Shown here piece by piece: positions 25,838 through 44,611 of a DNA stretch of 49,007 nucleotides (within the stretch, counting starts at the first letter, position 1; the number at the start of each line of letters is the position of its first letter). The position numbers and the translations under genes were made by a program. The notes under the pieces were generated by a model. That model had not been told where the DNA came from. It saw only the letters and a list, made by a program, of their open reading frames with translations, and ran no database searches. The stretch is from a virus. The stretch covers positions 1 through 49,007 of IMG/VR virus record IMGVR_UViG_3300044796_000187; one strand, written 5' to 3'.

Positions 25838-26986
25838 ATGCAAAGTCGTTTACGACATAGTGCAAAACGTTTCAATGAGGGACAGCAATCGTTGAGCAGC
25901 AAATACAAACCTACGAATGTTGTTGTTATTCAAATTTCTGGTGGAATAAGAATTACATGGAATGCATTGGCTAATATTGATAATTATGAGGTTTGGGTGT
26001 CTATAAACAGTGCGCCATTTGTTATATTAGCAATTATAACAAGCGGGACTACTTATTATGATGACTTGACATATTATGCAGGAGTTCCAATTGCTTATAA
26101 AATAAGGGCAATTACCGGGAGTATTTATTCTGACTTTTCAGCAGAAGCAATAATTCAATTAAGTTATGTGCCTGCCTTTTTATTGGGAATGCATACTTTT
26201 GCAATTTATGAACCGTTAGCAACAAATGGACGTTTGGCTGCATCAGGAATAGAGAGTATTTATTGGGATCAAAAAATTGCTTACGGAACATTAGGTGCAG
26301 AACAGAATAGCGGTGTAATAGTTTTGTATGCAGTTTATAAGATAACGGCCTGTCAGACTAATTTCTTTTATACAGGATGTACGGTTGGGGATACATTTGT
26401 TTGTGGAACAGTTAAAACCTGTGATTCAAATAATAAGGTACAACTATATACTGGCAATCACTTAACGCAACCAGTAGTAGCTAGAAGACCGACAAATCAG
26501 GTTTTTAATGGTGTACATGGTGCTTCAGGTAGTTTTATGAAAACTGCACCATTCACGTTAACTCAACCATTTTTCATATATATAGTTTTTAACCCTGTTT
26601 CATGGGCTAGTCTTGATGTGATTTTTGATGGTAGTGCTGATTTTGCGGCAGCACTTATACAACATACGGCAACCCCTCAGGTTCAAACATTTGCAGGTAG
26701 TTATATTGGAACATCCGTAAATCCTACTGTTGGTCAATCCTGTATCATGCGTTGTTTATTTAATAATACAAATTCAAAAATGATCTTAGCAAATGGTATA
26801 CCAGTAACAGGTACTGTAGGAAATACCGCTAATAGTGGATTTACTCTTGGTAATGGCGGCGGAGGAGGTACCTCTTATTCTGCAAATATTGGATTTTCCT
26901 ATGCTGCAATTACTGATGGATCGGAGGCAGGAGGATCAAATGAGACAGCAATATATAATTATTTAACAGCAAAATACTCCTTATAA
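25838..26986 (+). CDS. Tail-fibre/adhesin-like protein: FN3 plus LamG-like domain, 382 aa
   Basis: Residues 27-108 form a fibronectin type III domain (GGIRITWNALANIDNYEVWV ... YKIRAITGSIYSDFS). The rest looks like a concanavalin/LamG carbohydrate-binding domain: SFMKTAPFTLTQPFFIYIVF, a run NGGGGGTSYSANIG, and the typical ending ETAIYNYLTAKYSL. Probably a receptor-binding or glycan-binding virion protein. The next gene begins with a related FN3 domain, suggesting duplication. Confidence 0.7.
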   Translation: MQSRLRHSAKRFNEGQQSLSSKYKPTNVVVIQISGGIRITWNALANIDNYEVWVSINSAPFVILAIITSGTTYYDDLTYYAGVPIAYKIRAITGSIYSDFSAEAIIQLSYVPAFLLGMHTFAIYEPLATNGRLAASGIESIYWDQKIAYGTLGAEQNSGVIVLYAVYKITACQTNFFYTGCTVGDTFVCGTVKTCDSNNKVQLYTGNHLTQPVVARRPTNQVFNGVHGASGSFMKTAPFTLTQPFFIYIVFNPVSWASLDVIFDGSADFAAALIQHTATPQVQTFAGSYIGTSVNPTVGQSCIMRCLFNNTNSKMILANGIPVTGTVGNTANSGFTLGNGGGGGTSYSANIGFSYAAITDGSEAGGSNETAIYNYLTAKYSL

Positions 26987-28865
26987 TGACTATACCAACT
27001 AATCCACAATGCACACAAATAACCGGGGCAATCCAAGTAACTTGGGTAGAAGGTGCTAATCCCGCTGATCAATACCAGGTATGGAAGTCTGTGAATAGTG
27101 GAACATATTCATTATTAACAACTATCCTGAGTGGCATTCAATTATATAATGATACGGCAGCGACTAATCTTGGTGATTTAATAAAATATAAAATCAGGGG
27201 AAAGAATGGATTAACGGTTTCTAATTTTTCAAGCCCTAAACAAATTACCAGTAGAACATGGAGTGAATTGATGCAATATAGTTATACTGATGTAATTAAT
27301 ACTCATGTAACATGGACTTACGGCACAAAAACGTTAATACTTGGCAGGTTACAGGAACAATACATAATTGATACATTCGGCCCGGCAGGACAAAATAAAA
27401 CTGTTTGTGATTTCTTTATATTTTTACAGGTTAATCCTGCATATTTAACGCATATTGCCAGGACGATAACAAAATCTGGTGCAACATTACGATGGAATTT
27501 TGGAGGTGGAAATATTTATTCTCAAAATAATTTACCTGCACAGACAAGTACTACTGAAGTTTCTTTTACATCAACTGATGGATTTTCTGGTGTAACGGCA
27601 CTTTCATTGAATCCAAATGGATTTATAAATAATATATTTAAGATTACATATTATTTTCCAAATGCTACCACTATAATAATAGCTGGTGATGCTAATGGTA
27701 AAATGTCGGGTAATATTTCTTCATTTAATTTTATAAATACTGCTGCATATATTAATCTCTCCAATAATCTTTTTATTGGCGATTTGTCTGCAATGACAAT
27801 ACCGGATAGTTGTGGTTATTTTGATTTGAATAGTAATTTATTTACTGGTACCGCTCCTTCTATATCAGCTAATCATCTTGGGGGCGGAGCACTTCTATAT
27901 TATTGTTATAGTAATAAATTTACAGGATTTGGAGGTTCATTGGTAAGTAGAAACACGTGGGATTTTCAACTTGGAAATAATCAAATAAACACTACGGGCA
28001 TTACATCAATAATTACAAAATTTAATAATTATTTCTCAGCACATGCACCTACGCATAATTTAAGTATAACTTTAACTACCGGGGCACATACCACTAATGG
28101 GACAATTACAGGTGGAGAAACAAATTCCGATTTGGTTAATTTAAAAGCTGTTTTTGTTAATGCAGGATACACCTGTACTGTTACATATAATGCAGTTTCA
28201 TTTTTAGCATTGCCTCTTAATGTTCCATTTATGGCAATCACTTTTGATGATGAATATATTACTCAATTTACTACACTCTATCCGGTGCTGGCAGCGAGGG
28301 GATTAGTAGGAACACTTTATGTCACTGCCTATCATGTCGGAACAGCAGGGTATATGACTGTCTCTAATTTACAGGCTCTTTATGCTGCTGGATGGGATAT
28401 TCAATGTCATACATACGATCATATTGATATGACAACTTTAACACAGGCACAACAAGAAGATCAATATGCGAGATTAAATACATTTTTAACAACAAATAGT
28501 ATTCCTTCTCCAAATCATACAGCCTATCCATATGGTACTTTGAATGCATTAGTGGAACAAGTAGCTGCTGAATACAGACTGACTGGACGTGGTGTTGACT
28601 GGCAAACACTTAATGGCTTAATATATAAGTTATAACCTGGGGAACACTTAATGCAACCACCGATACTGTTGTCCGAATAGAATCAGTAATAGATTTAGCA
28701 GTAATAGCAAAAGCAGGGATGATAAGTTATCTTCATACATTTGTAACTAATGCAACAGGAAGTGATACGGATATAGATATGTTTGCATCATTTATAGATT
28801 ATGCAATAAGTCAAGGAGTTACTGTTGGTACAATATCACAACTATATGCAAAATTAATTGCTTAG
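26986..28865 (+). pseudogene. Fibre-like protein: FN3, LRR-like and NodB polysaccharide deacetylase, frameshifted near its end
   Basis: Zero frame runs to the TAA at 28633-28635 (549 aa). Residues 8-90 are FN3 and about 205-330 hold LRR-like repeats (AAYINLSNNLFIGDLS, GYFDLNSNLFTGTAP). The NodB metal motifs are TFDD (D421-D422) and HTYDH (H475, H479), with YPYG at 514-517. The -1 frame then continues from 28629 for 78 codons with a plausible NodB C-terminus (MISYLHTFVT ... GVTVGTISQLYAKLI). So one gene is split by a frameshift near 28629. The truncated product keeps the metal site but loses the last motifs. It may deacetylate host surface glycan at attachment. Confidence 0.8.
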
Positions 28866-35560: not shown

Positions 35561-36157
35561 ATGAATTGGGAAGATGACATTCGATTAAAAAACGCAGAAA
35601 GAGTTTTATCCCTAGCTTACCAGGTGGCTAATGTTAATGAGTTTGAAAAAGCTATTGTTGATGACCTGAGTTACTCGGAGGACTTTCGCATAGAAAAAAC
35701 TGGAAAAGAGGTGAAAGAAAAACTCCAGTTAGAACTTTTAACATTAGCTAGTCAGAAGATTGCTGCTGTAGTTAAGATGGAATCCTTAGTTAAGGATATT
35801 AATCAGTTACCAAGTGGCAAACCGGATCAATGGCAGATACGAGGATTTGAAAAATATCTTGGTGAAGTGCCACGTCAGTATAGTTATGCTCAGATTTATC
35901 CGAATGAGAAAAATCCTGCCGAAGCAAAGTGTGAACCAATGTACGATAATGATCTCAACCCAACTAGTTTCCCTGGTGGTATCACTCCAACTGTTACAAA
36001 AGAGATAATAGACAAAATGAGGGAATATAATCAGGTGGCTGGTGATTACATCCGGGGTTGCATTGATGAAATTAAACTCAAGACAGTTATTGATAATCTA
36101 CAAGATGGCAAGAAGATAAAACTGGCTCCACAATTAGCTAGCCAACTTGGTTTTTAA
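35561..36157 (+). CDS. Hypothetical protein, head-block, 198 aa
   Basis: A helical N-terminal part (NAERVLSLAYQVANVNEFEK) precedes a segment FPGGITPTVTKEIIDKMREY that looks conserved. Basic C-terminus. It is the first gene behind a late-type promoter, just before the protease region. An earlier ATG at 35555 is followed at once by a stop. No family recognised. Confidence 0.6.
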   Translation: MNWEDDIRLKNAERVLSLAYQVANVNEFEKAIVDDLSYSEDFRIEKTGKEVKEKLQLELLTLASQKIAAVVKMESLVKDINQLPSGKPDQWQIRGFEKYLGEVPRQYSYAQIYPNEKNPAEAKCEPMYDNDLNPTSFPGGITPTVTKEIIDKMREYNQVAGDYIRGCIDEIKLKTVIDNLQDGKKIKLAPQLASQLGF

Positions 36158-36167
36158 CTTTGCTTCA

Positions 36168-38216
36168 ATGATACAAAAACTCAGACGGTTATTACATTTG
36201 GAAACTACGGAGGAAGCCCTGCGGGACTTTGCCGGTATAATAGAACAGGGTGGGGTGTTTAAGTCAGAGATAGATACTATGGCTCGTGAATACTTAGGCA
36301 GTCGGGGTGAACTAGATAAATGGGCTGTGAGTGAACATGAACCTGATGTACAGGAATTGATTAAAGCACAGCAGGATGGTTTGACAAGTCGTTACCTGGC
36401 ATTCCTGGCTGATAAACAAACGGAATATTTCCGGTTGGAAGAGCGTAAACAATTCTATACAGCTAAGTATCCTGATTTTGAAAAGGCATTGAGTGATTTA
36501 AAGAAGAATGATTTCATTGAACATATATTAACAAGTTATCGCAATACAGCATTATCACTGGAAGAAAGTAATACACTGATCAAAGCTGTTACAAAAAGTA
36601 AGGTGCAATATGCTGACAATATAGTTTTCAACCAGAAAGGAGAATTGCTGATTGTTCAGCGTCAACCACTGGGTGGTGAGAAGGAAGGAGCAAACCTGTG
36701 GGTGTTGCCTGGTGGACACGTTAAGATGGGGGAGAAGTTTGATGCGGCTGCTCAACGGGAACTGCTGGAAGAAACGGGTTACACCGCAGAGGATATTTAT
36801 CACGTGGGGGATTACGATGATGACACTGTTCATATTGAATACTACTGTTCAATGATTGATACTGATGAACAGAGTCCTGTAGTGGATGCTGCTGAAACAC
36901 GTGCAACAGAATTTATTCACATCAAAGATTTATATAAACATCCTACTATACATAATATGTGGGATAAAGTTTATGAGATACTGGGTATTGAAGAACATGT
37001 GGTTAAGATTAAGAAGGCTATCGCTGAAGGGATTGTTAAGAATGAACGGGCAGAGGTAGTGGTTGATGATAAAATCAGTGAACTGATTAAAGGTTGTGGT
37101 GGCAGTGGAGTCAAAGCCAAGTTCAAAAAAGTGATGGACAAGTGGAAAGCCGGTAAACTCAAAAGTGGAGAGAGTGATGAAACTGTGACTAGTCAGAAGC
37201 AAGCTATTGCTATTGCACTGAGTGAAACAGGTCAGAGTAAGGAGAAAGCTATTGATGGGGAATTTGAAAAGGCACAAAAAGATATATTAAAGACTAATGA
37301 AGGAGAATCTGTCAAAGTTAAATCAACAGAATCTGTTAAATGGACTCGTGATGATAAAACCGATCCTTTTGATAGATTATTAAAAAATAAGAAAGACCTG
37401 CCCACTAATGTTAGAAATCGTTTAGATATTGGAGTAACTGATTTAACCAGTAGAGAGTTAAAGAAAGTTGTACGTACTCCATACAAAGGATTGCCTGTAT
37501 TGTCAGACGGAACATTAATAATGACAGTTGATGAGTTATATGTTCAGAAACATTTATCTGATGATTTTGTTAACGGTGGTAATGGTTATGCATACCCTAA
37601 TTTTATACCAGAGGATGAACGTTGGATTTCCGATGATCAGCCAGAGGATGAAGAGAAAAAAACTTTAATACATGAAGTGACAGAACCAGAATTAATGCGG
37701 TTAAATCCTGATTTACCTTACTCAACTGATAAAGGAATTAATGCACATGACCTTGCTAAAATGGTAGATGGATTTTTAAGTGGTCAGGATGCAAAAACTT
37801 TAAACGAGAATGAGAAATTTGATGATAAGGAAATGAAGCGATATGTGGAAACGATTTTAACAAATAGTGTAATTAAAGAGGTATTTGATTTTGCTAAGGG
37901 AAAAAGGAAGATTAATAAATCAGTTGAGGGTGATCTTGAAAAGGCTATTGCATTAAAGGATATGGATGATAAGGGCATTCTCCGGGAAGCTATCACGGCT
38001 GAATATGATGCTATAAATCTTTATGAACAGATAGCTGAAACGGTTAAAGACGAAAAACTTAAAAAACTCTTTTTAGACATAGCAAAAGAGGAAAAGGTTC
38101 ATGTGGGAGAATTTGAAGCACTTTTGCTTAAAATTGACAAAGAGCAAACGAGTGGTTTAGAAGTGGGGAAGAAAGAGGAAGCAAAGACGGAACTCAAAAT
38201 GTTTAGGACAAAGTAA
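36168..38216 (+). CDS. Multidomain protein: Nudix hydrolase, DUF6496-like, ferritin-like, 682 aa
   Basis: I use the ATG at 36168; a TTG at 36147 would add seven residues. Residues 150-265 are a Nudix domain: the Nudix box is GGHVKMGEKFDAAAQREL then LEETGY (about 182-205), matching GX5EX7REUXEEXGU. Residues about 305-360 (KAKFKKVMDKWKAGKLKSGE, TSQKQAIAIALSETG) resemble DUF6496. A region near 440-560 is unassigned. Residues about 595-665 form a ferritin/rubrerythrin-like helical pair (LREAITAEYDAINLYEQIAE, EEKVHVGEFEALL). Located between head genes, it may be packaged in the virion. Ends in a TAATG overlap with a homing endonuclease. Confidence 0.75.
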   Translation: MIQKLRRLLHLETTEEALRDFAGIIEQGGVFKSEIDTMAREYLGSRGELDKWAVSEHEPDVQELIKAQQDGLTSRYLAFLADKQTEYFRLEERKQFYTAKYPDFEKALSDLKKNDFIEHILTSYRNTALSLEESNTLIKAVTKSKVQYADNIVFNQKGELLIVQRQPLGGEKEGANLWVLPGGHVKMGEKFDAAAQRELLEETGYTAEDIYHVGDYDDDTVHIEYYCSMIDTDEQSPVVDAAETRATEFIHIKDLYKHPTIHNMWDKVYEILGIEEHVVKIKKAIAEGIVKNERAEVVVDDKISELIKGCGGSGVKAKFKKVMDKWKAGKLKSGESDETVTSQKQAIAIALSETGQSKEKAIDGEFEKAQKDILKTNEGESVKVKSTESVKWTRDDKTDPFDRLLKNKKDLPTNVRNRLDIGVTDLTSRELKKVVRTPYKGLPVLSDGTLIMTVDELYVQKHLSDDFVNGGNGYAYPNFIPEDERWISDDQPEDEEKKTLIHEVTEPELMRLNPDLPYSTDKGINAHDLAKMVDGFLSGQDAKTLNENEKFDDKEMKRYVETILTNSVIKEVFDFAKGKRKINKSVEGDLEKAIALKDMDDKGILREAITAEYDAINLYEQIAETVKDEKLKKLFLDIAKEEKVHVGEFEALLLKIDKEQTSGLEVGKKEEAKTELKMFRTK

Positions 38217-39037
38217 TGAGTGAAGTTCAGGAAATATTATACAATACTGATATTGCTATTAAAGATAGGATTGATAAAACAATAGTTTTATTAGATGACT
38301 TTGAAAGATATCGTTGTCTTGATAGTAAATTTCGCATTGTTTACTTAACAGTAAATTGTATTAATGGTAAAAAATATATAGGGCAACACACTACTATAAA
38401 ATTAAATGATACTTATTTTGGTTCTGGTGCAGTATTGTTGAAAGCGTTAAAAAAGTATGGTAAGGAGAATTTTGAAAAGGGAATTCTTGATTATGCTACT
38501 GATCAAGATGATTTAAACAAAAAAGAACTTTACTGGATTTTGTTTATGCAAGAACGATATGATTGTTATAATTTGACAACAGAACCATATAAAAAAATAA
38601 CAACTGAGGAAGAAAAAAGAAAAAGTAGTGAACGACAAAAAGGGGGAACTCCTTGGAATAAAGGTTTAACTGGTATTTATTCTGAATATACTTTAGATAG
38701 AATACGTCAGTCTAAATTAGGTACTATTCAAACGGAAGAATCAAATCAAAAACGAAGTGCTAAACTTTTAGGTAAAACTTTTTCTAAGGAACATAATGAT
38801 AAAATTAGCATAGCTTTCACAGGACGTTCTATAACATGGGGAGATAAAATAAGTAAAACTCTTACAGGAGTTGATCAGCCTAAAGAAGTAACAGAAAAAC
38901 GAATAAATACTCTTTTGAATTTGCCTAAAATCATTTGTCCTAATTGTGGTTATGTAGGAAAGTATATGAAAAATATGCAAAAGTGGCATTTTGATAATTG
39001 TAAGAAGAAGCCTAGATATTTTAGAACAATATTTTAG
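38216..39037 (+). CDS. Free-standing GIY-YIG homing endonuclease, 273 aa
   Basis: IVYLTVNCINGKKYIGQHTT carries the GIY-YIG signature (Y-L ... K-Y-I-G), with FGSGAVLLKALKKYGKENFE as the next helix. NUMOD3-type repeats follow (EEEKRKSSERQKGGTPWNKG, KLGTIQTEES, LLGKTFSKEHNDKIS). A C-terminal zinc finger, ICPNCGYVGKYMKNMQKWHF with DNC, probably aids DNA binding. It is inserted between two intact head genes and coupled by TAATG to the first, so it is a selfish element without an intron. A paralogue lies at 43823. Confidence 0.88.
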   Translation: MSEVQEILYNTDIAIKDRIDKTIVLLDDFERYRCLDSKFRIVYLTVNCINGKKYIGQHTTIKLNDTYFGSGAVLLKALKKYGKENFEKGILDYATDQDDLNKKELYWILFMQERYDCYNLTTEPYKKITTEEEKRKSSERQKGGTPWNKGLTGIYSEYTLDRIRQSKLGTIQTEESNQKRSAKLLGKTFSKEHNDKISIAFTGRSITWGDKISKTLTGVDQPKEVTEKRINTLLNLPKIICPNCGYVGKYMKNMQKWHFDNCKKKPRYFRTIF

Positions 39038-39057: not shown

Positions 39058-39882
39058 ATGAGAAACAATCATTTTAATTTTTTTATGCCTGTTGAATTTG
39101 AAAAGGCAGGTACTGGAGAAACCCGGTATAAAAACATGATTATAGGTGGTGTTGCATCAACAAATGATATAGATTTAGATTCAGAAATTCTTGAACCTAA
39201 TGGATTTGATCTTAGTCTTTTGAAAGTTAAAGGAACGATTAACTGGGAACATCAGGCAAAGCATTCAGCATTAAATATAATTGGGGAACCTATTGAAGCT
39301 GAAGTGAAAAATAATAAACTACTTCTCAAAGCAAAGTTATATGAAAAGATGGCAAAAGCTCGGGATGCTTATGATACCATGGAAGCTATGAAGGAATCTG
39401 GAGCCACTCGTGGTTTTGGTTTTTCTATTGAAGGTACTCCTTTACAGCGTGATCCTAACAATCCAAAACGTATTACTAAAGCATTAGTTACAAATATTGC
39501 ACTTTGCATGATCCCAAAAAATTCAAATACATGGGCTTCTATAATAAAAGGTACTCAACAAGAGGATTTTATTGAACAAACTTATGACATTCCACAGGAT
39601 GTACCTTATTTATATAAAGGTACGTTTGGTAACAATGAGTACACGTTGAATAAAGATTTTACTATCACCAAGGCAATGTGTGCTACATCAGAGACTGGTC
39701 AACAGTTGGTTGGTAAGAATACCAGTGGAGCAGCACTGAAAAAGGAATCATTAGATGAGGATTTAAAAATACTCACAATCCCAATTTCTACTATTCACTG
39801 GGCTGCTGATAACTGGGAGAATTTCAAAAAAGATACCCGTAAAGCATTGAGGAAAGCTTTGCATGATGCATTGAAAAATTAA
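39058..39882 (+). CDS. Prohead maturation protease (S78/U35-like), 274 aa
   Basis: GTINWEHQAKHS provides the catalytic H65 and GFGFSIEGTPL the nucleophile S123, in the order of phage prohead proteases. The fold-specific segment DLDSEILEPNGFDLSLL matches N-terminal strands of that family. Residues 205-240 are 25/36 identical to capsid residues 33-68, which is unusual. The C-terminus is basic and helical (NFKKDTRKALRKALHDALKN). It cleaves scaffold and capsid proteins during head maturation. Confidence 0.8.
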   Translation: MRNNHFNFFMPVEFEKAGTGETRYKNMIIGGVASTNDIDLDSEILEPNGFDLSLLKVKGTINWEHQAKHSALNIIGEPIEAEVKNNKLLLKAKLYEKMAKARDAYDTMEAMKESGATRGFGFSIEGTPLQRDPNNPKRITKALVTNIALCMIPKNSNTWASIIKGTQQEDFIEQTYDIPQDVPYLYKGTFGNNEYTLNKDFTITKAMCATSETGQQLVGKNTSGAALKKESLDEDLKILTIPISTIHWAADNWENFKKDTRKALRKALHDALKN

Positions 39883-39910
39883 ATTTTTCTAAAAAATCAC
39901 TGAATAAAAA

Positions 39911-39942
39911 TTATTTTAACTCATTCATACATTAATTTTATA
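39911..39942 (+). promoter_or_regulatory. Phage late-type promoter element, copy 6 (scaffold/capsid)
   Basis: TTATTTTAAC at 39911 and TAATTTTATA at 39933, 22 bp apart, then AAATTTGAT at 39949-39957, 16 nt from the second box. It is somewhat weaker than copies 4 and 5 in the first box but shares the leader element. It gives scaffold and capsid their own start. Confidence 0.6.
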
Positions 39943-39980
39943 GTCTGAAAATTTGATAATAAACAATTAAAGATAATACA

Positions 39981-40760
39981 ATGGATGGAAAAATAGCTCT
40001 CGAAACAATACAATCCTTTAAGACATTACTTTCCCCGGAAGATTATGGGGAGTTTCTGAAAGGAGAGGATTCTGCTAAGCTTCGGGCATTCCCTGAAGTG
40101 GCTGAATTTATTAAAGCTAAACCGGCTGAGGAAAAAGAAGAGAAGGAAGAAACGGAAGAAGAAAAATTAGCCAGGGAGAAAGAAGAAAAGGAAGAGAAGG
40201 AAGAAAAACCTGAACTCAAGAAAGCACAGGATGATGTTACATTAGCAGAAACTGCTCTGGCAGAAAAGAAAGCTGCTCTGGAGGCTTTGCAACCTGCTCC
40301 CGCAGTCACTCCGGTTACAAGTGAGATGTTCAAAGGTCTTCAGTCAGAGATCAACACCAAGTTTTCTGAGGTTACCAAACTGATAACCAAGTCAATTGGC
40401 CCATCGGATGAAGTCACTGAACTGAAAAAGTCAGTGGACAACATCGTGGGGATAGTTGAAAAGATTGCCAAGATGCCACTGGGTACCAAGGCAATTAAAG
40501 AGGGTGTTGCAGCTAACTACTTTGAAAAAGCACTGGCTGGGGAGTCTCAGGATGAAACTGGCAAGCAGGTATTGAGTGTTAACATCAATAAAGATCAGGT
40601 GTTGAAAGCAATGGTTGACGTTGGTGAAAAGGTCACTGACCCGGAACTGAAGAAAGCCTATGAAGATTCTATAATGCGTTATAATGCTGGCGGTGGCACG
40701 ATTGAAAAAGCTGTTGCTGTTGACCTGCATGATAACCATGATATACGTTTGGTTAAGTAA
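39981..40760 (+). CDS. Capsid scaffolding protein, 259 aa
   Basis: Located between protease and capsid genes. Residues 50-110 are a highly charged Glu/Lys coiled coil (EEKEEKEETEEEKLAREKEE, then ELKKAQDDVTLAETALAEKK). The C-terminal half has heptad patterns (EVTELKKSVDNIVGIVEKIA) and ends with an Asp/His-rich tail. Composition and position fit a scaffold or internal core that is removed by the protease. Confidence 0.75.
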   Translation: MDGKIALETIQSFKTLLSPEDYGEFLKGEDSAKLRAFPEVAEFIKAKPAEEKEEKEETEEEKLAREKEEKEEKEEKPELKKAQDDVTLAETALAEKKAALEALQPAPAVTPVTSEMFKGLQSEINTKFSEVTKLITKSIGPSDEVTELKKSVDNIVGIVEKIAKMPLGTKAIKEGVAANYFEKALAGESQDETGKQVLSVNINKDQVLKAMVDVGEKVTDPELKKAYEDSIMRYNAGGGTIEKAVAVDLHDNHDIRLVK

Positions 40761-40796
40761 GAAATTTGAGCATAAACGATAATATAAATTGAAACG

Positions 40797-42344
40797 ATGA
40801 ATCCGATAACTGCAGATTTATACAATTATGGTGGTCTTGAGACCGGGGTGTTTCCCGGACTTGACTCGCCAGACAAAATTTACGAGCTTGCCAAGGCAAT
40901 GTCCGCTGGTGATACCACCGGCCAGGGTCTTATAGGTACGCTCACGAGTGGTGCTGCTCTGAAAACAGAATCACTTGACCCGATGCTGAAGATTTTAACA
41001 TCTCAGGATAAGCACATCGTGTTGCATAAGATTCTGCCCAAGCAGAATGCTTATAACACCGTGGAAGAATTTAACCAGTTGGTTGATTACGGTCTGAACA
41101 TAGGGATTTTCAACGATGAAGGTGAGACTCCCCAGTTTACAGACTCGATCTACAGACGTGAATCTGTACTGATCAAGTATAGTGGTGTCAGTGGTGAAGT
41201 CACCCATCCATTTACATTGGTCCGTCTTGGTTCAGGCGTGGGGGATGCCCTGGCTCAGGAAGTCAAGAACAAAACACAGTTCCTGATCCGTGCTCTGGAT
41301 AAAGCATATCCGGTAGCAAACAGCCGTCTGGTGTCTAATGAATTTGACGGAATATTTAAACAACATTATTCCGGTGTTACCGGGGAGACTACCCCGACTG
41401 TAGCTGGCTTGAATAAGTTTTTTGCAGACTCTTCAATAGTTGATGCCCGTGGTTATATCCTTTCAGACAAGATGGTTGAGGATGCTGCTCACGCAGTGGT
41501 TAACGATAACTTCGGGATGGTGAGTTCAATAATTGGTCCACCGATAGTATTCTCGAATTACGTCAGCCAGTTCCACGAAAGTAAACGTATCATTATTGGT
41601 AGTCCTAATGGAGTTGAAGGGGCTACAATGGGTCAGTCGGTCAATGATATTATGACTCAGTTCGGTAAGATCGGGGTCATCAGTGATATCTTCTTTGATT
41701 ACAAGACCTCCAAGGCATACAACGAAGCTACTACCAGTGCCAAGGCACCTGCTGCTCCTGTTGCTGCTGGTAACCTGACAAACAACGTTACGGATACTAA
41801 TACATCATTTACTGATTCAGCAGGTAATTACTGGTACGGTGTAACGGCTAAGAACCGTTACGGAGAATCAGCACTGACGCTGCTCGACACTGCTGTACAG
41901 GCTATTGCAGCTACTGAGGCTTGTGATCTGACATTCACTCATACCGATGGGGCTTATGCAGCTGAATGCTTTGTAATATATCGTACCGAGAAAAGTCCGG
42001 CTGCTTACGCTTCAGCTAAGTTTTACCCAATATTCGCAGTCACCCGTGGTGACTTTGGAACAGGTTATGACGGTGCTGCTGCTGGCAGTGTGAGGGATAA
42101 AAACCGCTTCATTGCCAACACTCACAGTGCTATTGTTCTGGACAACTCACTGGACGTTTGGGCATTGAAACAACTGGCTCCGATAATGCGTATGGACTTG
42201 GCACGTACCAGCCCATCGTTTCGTTTCATGATTCTGGCTTACCTGACGATGGTGTTGTTTGCACCGAAGAAGTTAAGCAGGATTGTAAACATTGGGGCAT
42301 CATTCCCAACCAGTGCAGTCATAGGGACATATTTGAACTATTAA
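40797..42344 (+). CDS. Major capsid protein, HK97-like, with FN3-like insertion, 515 aa
   Basis: Residues 33-70 are an N-terminal segment shared with the protease. The capsid core shows the E-loop/P-domain style (NTVEEFNQLVDYGLNIGIFN, VVNDNFGMVSSIIGPPIVFS, KRIIIGSPNGVEGATMG). Residues about 325-420 look like an inserted Ig/FN3-like domain: GNYWYGVTAKNRYGESALTL and CDLTFTHTDGAYAAECFVIY. The last 70 residues return to capsid-like sequence. The size is normal for a capsid with an insertion. A strong terminator follows, so it is the last gene of its transcript. Confidence 0.8.
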   Translation: MNPITADLYNYGGLETGVFPGLDSPDKIYELAKAMSAGDTTGQGLIGTLTSGAALKTESLDPMLKILTSQDKHIVLHKILPKQNAYNTVEEFNQLVDYGLNIGIFNDEGETPQFTDSIYRRESVLIKYSGVSGEVTHPFTLVRLGSGVGDALAQEVKNKTQFLIRALDKAYPVANSRLVSNEFDGIFKQHYSGVTGETTPTVAGLNKFFADSSIVDARGYILSDKMVEDAAHAVVNDNFGMVSSIIGPPIVFSNYVSQFHESKRIIIGSPNGVEGATMGQSVNDIMTQFGKIGVISDIFFDYKTSKAYNEATTSAKAPAAPVAAGNLTNNVTDTNTSFTDSAGNYWYGVTAKNRYGESALTLLDTAVQAIAATEACDLTFTHTDGAYAAECFVIYRTEKSPAAYASAKFYPIFAVTRGDFGTGYDGAAAGSVRDKNRFIANTHSAIVLDNSLDVWALKQLAPIMRMDLARTSPSFRFMILAYLTMVLFAPKKLSRIVNIGASFPTSAVIGTYLNY

Positions 42345-43822: not shown

Positions 43823-44611
43823 ATGATAATATTTAGAACTAAATATAATGATCAATATTATCTTGTTTACAAGACCACGAATCTTATAAATGGTAAAATA
43901 TATATAGGGTATCACAAGACTAAAAAATTAAAGGATTCTTATTTAGGTTCAGGAATTGAAATTACCCCTGCTATAAAAAAATATGGTCGTAAGAATTTCA
44001 AACGTGAAATTATTGAATTTTGTACTTCTTTAGAACATATGGCTGAACGGGAAATTTGGTGGGTTGCTGAATTAGATGCTACAAATCCTGAAATCGGTTA
44101 TAATCTTCATGAAGGTGGATGTGGTGGAGATATTTATAATTCATTGCCTATTAATACACAGAATAAAATAAAAAAAGCAGTTAGTGTTGCTCATAAAGGC
44201 ATACGACCTTCTGAAGAATCTATAAGAAGTGGAACTGAAAAACGTAGAGGAAAACCTTCTGGAAATACTGGTAAAAAACATATTGCTACTACAGAAAGAA
44301 AAAATAGTATTAGTATTGCTTTAACAGGAAAGTCAAAATCTGAAACACATAAACAGCATCTAAGAGAAGCAAATTTAGGCAAAACACAAACTCAAGAAAC
44401 AAAAGATAAACATAGTGAGACCTGTACTAAACAGGTGTATAAAGATAAAATAAAAATAGCATGGGACAATATGTCTGTTAAAATCTGTCCTCATTGTGGA
44501 TTTCAAAGTAAGAATATGCCTGATATGCTTCGTTGGCATTTTAATAACTGCAAACACAACCCAACTAGGAATATATTACAAGAACAGCAGCAAAAGCAAC
44601 AGGTATCATGA
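43823..44611 (+). CDS. Free-standing GIY-YIG homing endonuclease, 262 aa
   Basis: YLVYKTTNLINGKIYIGYHK is the GIY-YIG core, with YLGSGIEITPAIKKYGRKNF as the next helix. NUMOD3-like repeats follow (GKSKSETHKQHLREANLGKT) and a C-terminal zinc finger, ICPHCGFQSKNMPDMLRWHF with NNC, similar to the endonuclease at 38216. It sits between two intact neck genes: it starts 1 nt after the previous stop and ends in an ATGA overlap with the next start. Confidence 0.88.
   Translation: MIIFRTKYNDQYYLVYKTTNLINGKIYIGYHKTKKLKDSYLGSGIEITPAIKKYGRKNFKREIIEFCTSLEHMAEREIWWVAELDATNPEIGYNLHEGGCGGDIYNSLPINTQNKIKKAVSVAHKGIRPSEESIRSGTEKRRGKPSGNTGKKHIATTERKNSISIALTGKSKSETHKQHLREANLGKTQTQETKDKHSETCTKQVYKDKIKIAWDNMSVKICPHCGFQSKNMPDMLRWHFNNCKHNPTRNILQEQQQKQQVS

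Follow-up and report, generated by a model that had tools for sequence, protein, structure and literature searches.

A co-evolving peptide shared by the prohead protease and the major capsid protein of SPO1-type phages

Introduction

The question of how a prohead protease enters the shell and stays there up to the end of assembly has a long history in phage research, and the locus described here poses it in a specific form: why does a protease carry a copy of part of its main substrate? The locus lies in the window, by which we mean the whole stretch of 49,007 nucleotides that was analyzed (positions 1 to 49,007 of IMG/VR record IMGVR_UViG_3300044796_000187). Its head genes encode a prohead protease, a probable scaffold protein and a major capsid protein (MCP), and a 36-residue segment of the protease tail recurs near the start of the MCP. 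The gene order is identical to that of phage SPO1 (Herelleviridae; gp3.2 protease, gp3.3 scaffold, gp6.1 MCP) and the MCP is of the same family (9vel). Unlike SPO1, the virus of the window is known as an uncultured record and has GIY-YIG endonuclease genes among its head genes. The features on which the argument depends are as follows.

39058..39882, plus strand: prohead (head maturation) protease, 274 residues, with the catalytic domain at about residues 1-166 and a C-terminal tail after it
39670..39777, plus strand: shared segment, protease part, residues 205-240; a cleavage-like site (K205-A206), then a copy of the MCP N-arm, 25/36 identity
39981..40760, plus strand: probable scaffold protein, 259 residues, rich in E and K, between protease and MCP like gp3.3 of SPO1
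40797..42344, plus strand: MCP, 515 residues, SPO1-type HK97 fold (phrog_752, E 1.1e-65)
40893..41000, plus strand: shared segment, MCP part, residues 33-68; K33 as the P1 residue, followed by 35 residues that open the predicted mature N-arm

The shared segment in the sequenced virus

Residues 205-240 of the protease aligned without gaps with residues 33-68 of the MCP, and 25 of the 36 positions were identical, as a preliminary description of this DNA had reported. The top ungapped BLOSUM62 block was slightly longer (protease 198-240, MCP 26-68) and scored 112, whereas 1000 shuffled versions of the protease reached at most 57, a likeness far beyond chance. The MCP used as a query against the window also retrieved the protease stretch (E 2e-8). 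No third copy was found in the six-frame translation of the window, where the runner-up was a region of the scaffold at 40533 with a score of 27. The preliminary description was also right that the two copies had diverged as DNA: 63 of 108 bases and 13 of 36 third codon positions were identical, and the same codon was used at 11 of the 25 identical residues (8.4 expected).

Distribution of the tail copy among relatives

Relatives were drawn from 218 sources comprising the window, 43 viral-contig loci, 14 stretches of phage records and 160 further loci, all of the relatives counted having been recruited through the MCP or as named phage records; a query of viral contigs with the protease alone retrieved none. 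Fifteen sources without a protease in the stretch, two without an MCP start and one with an incomplete protease domain were dropped, and the remaining 200 loci were reduced at 80% MCP identity to 87 representatives, 76 with split genes and 11 with protease and scaffold fused. The first 100 residues past the catalytic domain were compared with the MCP start of the same genome, and significance was set at p <= 0.01 in 500 shuffles.

A significant tail copy of the genome's own MCP start was detected in 58 of the 76 split and 4 of the 11 fused representatives. The copy is a trait of the family and not peculiar to the window. A stricter rule on location gave 55/76 and 0/11, respectively; long tails raise the null under that rule, which was superseded by the equal-length test. 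Clear copies were present in SPO1 itself (K-S-L-E-A-G... in gp3.2, K-A-L-E-A-G... in gp6.1), Exiguobacterium phage EalM-132, Lysinibacillus phage LysYB1, Brochothrix phage A9, staphylococcal phage SAP6, Thermus phage Cumys and Pseudomonas phage Touem01. Among seven phages with other head types (HK97, D3, T4 with gp21 against gp23 and gp24, phiC31, Felix O1, P2, and lambda), none of eight comparisons reached p <= 0.01, with HK97 at p 0.047; 80alpha was left out, its stretch being without a protease gene.

Two observations on the records themselves were made. Five Bacillus phage records, 278BB001 for example, name the protease "major capsid protein," which calls for caution in annotation and for which the shared segment may be the cause. 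The MCP reading frames of loci L025 and L113 are interrupted; an intron or a faulty assembly may be the reason.

The tail tracks the capsid protein of its own genome

Genomes were taken two at a time without preselection, and the tail-to-arm scores within each genome were set against those with the partners swapped. The own scores were higher in 1438 of 1457 pairs with MCP identity below 30%, 1261 of 1392 at 30-40%, 433 of 523 at 40-55% and 268 of 369 at 55-80%, pairs that are not independent because every genome recurs in many. Among 29 genomes with an equal 19-residue spacing, the linker shared 65% of its residues with the own MCP and 32% with those of other genomes; none of 2000 permutations of partners within clades attained the own total, a test that carries selection since this set was picked for its spacing. 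Positions 2 and 4 past the lysine that begins the segment co-varied with the own MCP, and likeness and co-variation extended about 20-30 residues beyond the predicted cut. A rigid pattern was used for the table of motif spacings and it misplaces or misses the motif in some loci (e.g., L055, L059, L147, and L219), which leaves the counts of spread and of own vs. swapped scores unaffected.

The likeness is kept at the protein level without recent copying of DNA, since over the 62 genomes with a significant copy the same codon was used at 472 of 1156 identical residues, compared to 468.8 expected (standard deviation 15.7). Together, the spread through the family, the tracking of the own MCP and the codon use support the earlier suggestion of a preserved function rather than a recent duplication. 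Ongoing gene conversion within genomes would also keep the copies alike, and likeness within genomes does exceed likeness between genomes in distant pairs, but with codon agreement at expectation over the 62 genomes and little above it in the window we consider it extremely improbable; a recent conversion is ruled against by the codon identities. A functionless relic, with a tail that goes back to a copy of the MCP start or to a fused head polyprotein of an ancestor, would account for a shared stretch that is contiguous and for genes that lie two apart in conserved order. However, the tails fit their own MCP better in every divergence band, for which a relic would need the DNA conversion that the codons do not show, and the fusions that exist join protease to scaffold and have weaker copies. 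The polyprotein relic offered in the preliminary description was rejected because the tails track their own MCP, and a relic of either origin is very improbable.

A predicted cleavage site at the start of the segment

The first residues of the segment are well supported as a predicted protease cleavage site common to both proteins. The MCP of phage phi812 has a sequence of 463 residues and a deposited chain of 439 residues that is without the first 24, and in the 463-residue MCPs of loci L145 and L146 the segment lysine is at position 24, which would match a cut after K24 in phi812. In SPO1 gp6.1 (468 residues) the segment lysine is at 23 and the longest modelled chain listed has 445 residues, which equals 468 minus 23 and would be the exact length left by a cut after the lysine. 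The capsid protein of phage A511 is reported to be processed N-terminally near a lysine. The lysine equivalent to K33 was invariant in 54 of 54 aligned MCPs, and K33, S59 and L60 were invariant among 43 aligned MCPs. A hydrophobic residue was present two positions before the lysine in 82 of 87 MCPs and 43 of 55 protease tails.

The scaffolds, which are presumed substrates of the same enzyme, were rich in the same short motif. K-[SA]-[FLMYW] occurred 291 times in 73 scaffolds compared to 49 by shuffling, a sixfold enrichment (the rule used recognized no scaffold open reading frame in three of the 76 split genomes), and 43 times compared to 8 in the scaffold part of the 11 fusions. The motif was depleted in MCP bodies (27 vs. 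46 expected) and close to expectation in catalytic domains (36 vs. 28), as was the arginine control R[SA][FLMYW] in scaffolds (14 vs. 12). The scaffold of the window has three K-A-hydrophobic sites, after K183, K209 and K225, and the window sites that fit the longer form, hydrophobic-x-K-[SA]-hydrophobic, are protease K205, MCP K33, and scaffold K183 and K209. Two features are predicted from these comparisons.

40797..40895, plus strand: predicted MCP propeptide, residues 1-33; cut after K33 by analogy with phi812 (463 to 439 residues) and SPO1 (468 to 445 residues)
40527..40535, plus strand: candidate cleavage site K183-A-L in the scaffold, K[SA][FLMYW] motif

If the MCP of the sequenced virus is cut after K33, as predicted, the mature chain would start with the segment, only the propeptide before K33 being lost, contrary to the removal of the segment that the preliminary description implied. 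In the available portion of PMC5258805, phage K virions are reported to contain the capsid peptide (K)SFQTGYGITPDTQIDAGALR as one of three intense capsid peaks, so the segment appears to be retained in the mature capsid.

The whole segment could instead be an extended recognition sequence, with both copies binding one active-site groove and therefore co-varying, and with the protease copy acting as a self-cleavage site or as a pseudo-substrate inhibitor. Both copies start from the predicted scissile lysine and co-variation is seen at positions 2 and 4 past it, as this explanation would have it, but the co-variation runs further past the cut than the usual substrate groove of a protease, which is shorter than 20-30 residues. 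Moreover, the scaffolds hold the short motif alone: 2 of 73 matched the arm of their own MCP at p <= 0.01, which is about chance, and the ESL motif was found in 1 of 73 scaffolds compared to 66 of 87 MCPs and 46 of 87 protease tails. Scaffolds with the cut motif and without the arm indicate that cutting is separable from the extended copy, and we regard extended recognition as quite unlikely. The cleavage signal of the preliminary description is supported for the first residues, by the invariant lysine, the phi812 and SPO1 chain lengths, and the scaffold enrichment.

A proposed docking copy of the capsid arm

Because the extended arm appears not to be needed for cutting, its copy in the protease is probably there to bind what the arm of the mature MCP binds. 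The explanation that we find the most convincing, and rather likely, is that the segment consists of two functional pieces, a shared cleavage site followed by a docking copy of the mature MCP N-arm, and that the protease releases itself. Cuts by the protease would fall after K33 in the MCP, at several motif sites in the scaffold and most likely after K205 in its own chain. The arm copy of about 30 residues, which ends in G-x-A-L-[RK]-x-E-S-L-[DE] plus a few residues, would take the site in the prohead that is normally filled by the MCP N-arm, and the protease would thereby enter in the manner of a coat subunit. This site would most likely lie on the inside of the shell, less likely on the scaffold. 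Self-cleavage would leave the arm behind and release the catalytic domain to digest the scaffold and the MCP propeptides. The tail copy probably serves the entry of the protease into the shell and then its self-release. More tentatively, such a capsid-mimic tether, with an arm copy inserted in the shell lattice and cut at the bond that is also cut in the coat protein, could operate throughout the SPO1-type phages.

Docking had been suggested in the preliminary description, in the form of a tag that recruits protease and MCP to the scaffold core, and it would suit the residues past the cut site, although the partner may be the shell instead. The copy is weaker in fusions (4/11 vs. 58/76 representatives; mean own tail-to-arm score 40.6 vs. 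72.7), as if a covalent link to the scaffold had replaced a scaffold tag. A fusion would equally make a shell tag dispensable, however, and the fused set is small and drawn from few related lineages. The MCP segment stays in the virion, judging from the chain lengths and the phage K peptide in that portion of PMC5258805, and the scaffold is presumably gone, which makes the shell the likelier partner. The MCP end of the segment runs into the HK97 fold, which also suggests a contact with the shell. A tag that binds the scaffold is, in our judgment, unlikely.

Several results weigh against the two-piece explanation. A significant copy was absent at p <= 0.01 from 18 of the 76 split and 7 of the 11 fused representatives; a shortened form (K-A-L...P-E-S-L) was kept in several of these (L004, L005, L117, L119, L128, L129, L132, and L137), but loci L023 and L049 appear to be without even that, so the copy is apparently not indispensable. 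AlphaFold monomers placed no docking site, and the segment was of low confidence in both proteins (below 50 at protease residues 210-218 and 220-242 and at MCP residues 36-63). The SPO1 cut is deduced from a chain length rather than from coordinates. The phage K peptide, as presented in the available text, is tryptic and follows a lysine, and it demonstrates retention and not a maturation cut. The spacing of K-[SA]-hydrophobic in scaffolds could be due in part to amphipathic helices, an account that is weakened by the arginine control at expectation. Lastly, self-cleavage after K205 in an SPO1-type protease is argued from the motif and from precedent in other phages.

Predicted self-cleavage and comparison with known systems

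The predicted self-cleavage would release a C-terminal propeptide.

39673..39879, plus strand: predicted C-terminal protease propeptide of 69 residues, residues 206-274, from putative self-cleavage after K205

K205 fits the substrate motif, and the equivalent lysine of SPO1 gp3.2 is K169 of 256. In the portions of PMC5694885 and PMC10052503 available to us, the prohead proteases of SPN3US and phiKZ lose a C-terminal propeptide by autocleavage, and SPN3US gp245 sheds 64 residues in this way (PMC10052503), which makes a self-cleavage step plausible here. As in gp245, a C-terminal propeptide would be expected at a substrate motif, 69 residues long compared to 64; unlike gp245, which is cut after A-x-E, the protease of the window would be cut after K (PMC10052503, in part). 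The same portion of that article makes no mention of a capsid-protein copy in the SPN3US propeptide. Separately, a lysine at protease residue 164 (39547-39549), which ends the catalytic domain, was likewise invariant in 63 aligned proteases and is often followed by S-F; a second processing site may lie there.

The element resembles the T4 capsid targeting sequence as the available part of PMC5694885 describes it, a short tag by which internal proteins are carried into the prohead, whose protease then cuts it off. The T4 sequence is an N-terminal propeptide of 10-20 residues, whereas the tag of the window would be C-terminal, about 35 residues long and a copy of the mature MCP arm (PMC5694885). 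Identity with a T4-type targeting sequence was rejected, the element being C-terminal in the protease. The cargo-loading peptide of encapsulins is comparable in being a C-terminal tag, and it attaches to the inner side of a shell with the HK97 fold; it is not known to copy the shell protein.

Identity of the head proteins and neighboring genes

The protease matched phrog_1028 over residues 2-266 (E 2.4e-37) and Pfam Peptidase_S78 below the curated cut-off (E 0.0018), and its best Foldseek match was T4 gp21 (E 1.2e-4). H65 and S123, which we take to be catalytic residues, consistent with the active site of a serine protease, were among the invariant columns in the alignment of 63 proteases. Profile searches returned no confident family match for the scaffold candidate. 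SPO1 gp6.1 (9vel) matched the MCP in sequence (E 1.7e-57) and was its top fold match as well (VIA Z 33.3 over 395 residues, rmsd 3.6). The nearest relatives of the virus were viral contigs with up to 88% MCP identity, followed by an unannotated faecal phage sequence, Bacteroides phages and a Chryseobacterium phage, and then by SPO1-like phages.

Two GIY-YIG homing endonuclease genes (phrog_314) are located inside the head block, at 38216-39037, directly before the protease gene, and at 43823-44611. A head-block protein of 689 residues (36147-38216) combines a NUDIX hydrolase, DUF6496 and a rubrerythrin/ferritin-like domain. Elsewhere in the window, the product of 26986-28635 has a C-terminal polysaccharide deacetylase domain (Pfam E 1.6e-20) and possibly acts on a sugar of the host surface.

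Significance

No earlier report of the shared segment was found in the open-access literature, as judged by titles and the openings of abstracts. A co-evolving peptide common to a viral protease and its main substrate is real, widespread and, as far as searches of open-access text reach, unreported. The comparison also yields a predicted cleavage rule for the family, hydrophobic-x-K|[SA]-hydrophobic. Phages applied in therapy and in the protection of food have relatives in the SPO1-type family, and the tail copy is a possible tag for loading proteins into SPO1-type capsids. A conserved, genome-specific peptide points to an answer to the question of how the protease is placed, for which SPO1, a laboratory phage of Bacillus subtilis, is a suitable system. 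If the tether reading is true, a single co-evolving peptide, carried by protease and MCP alike, would determine where the protease is placed and when it acts.

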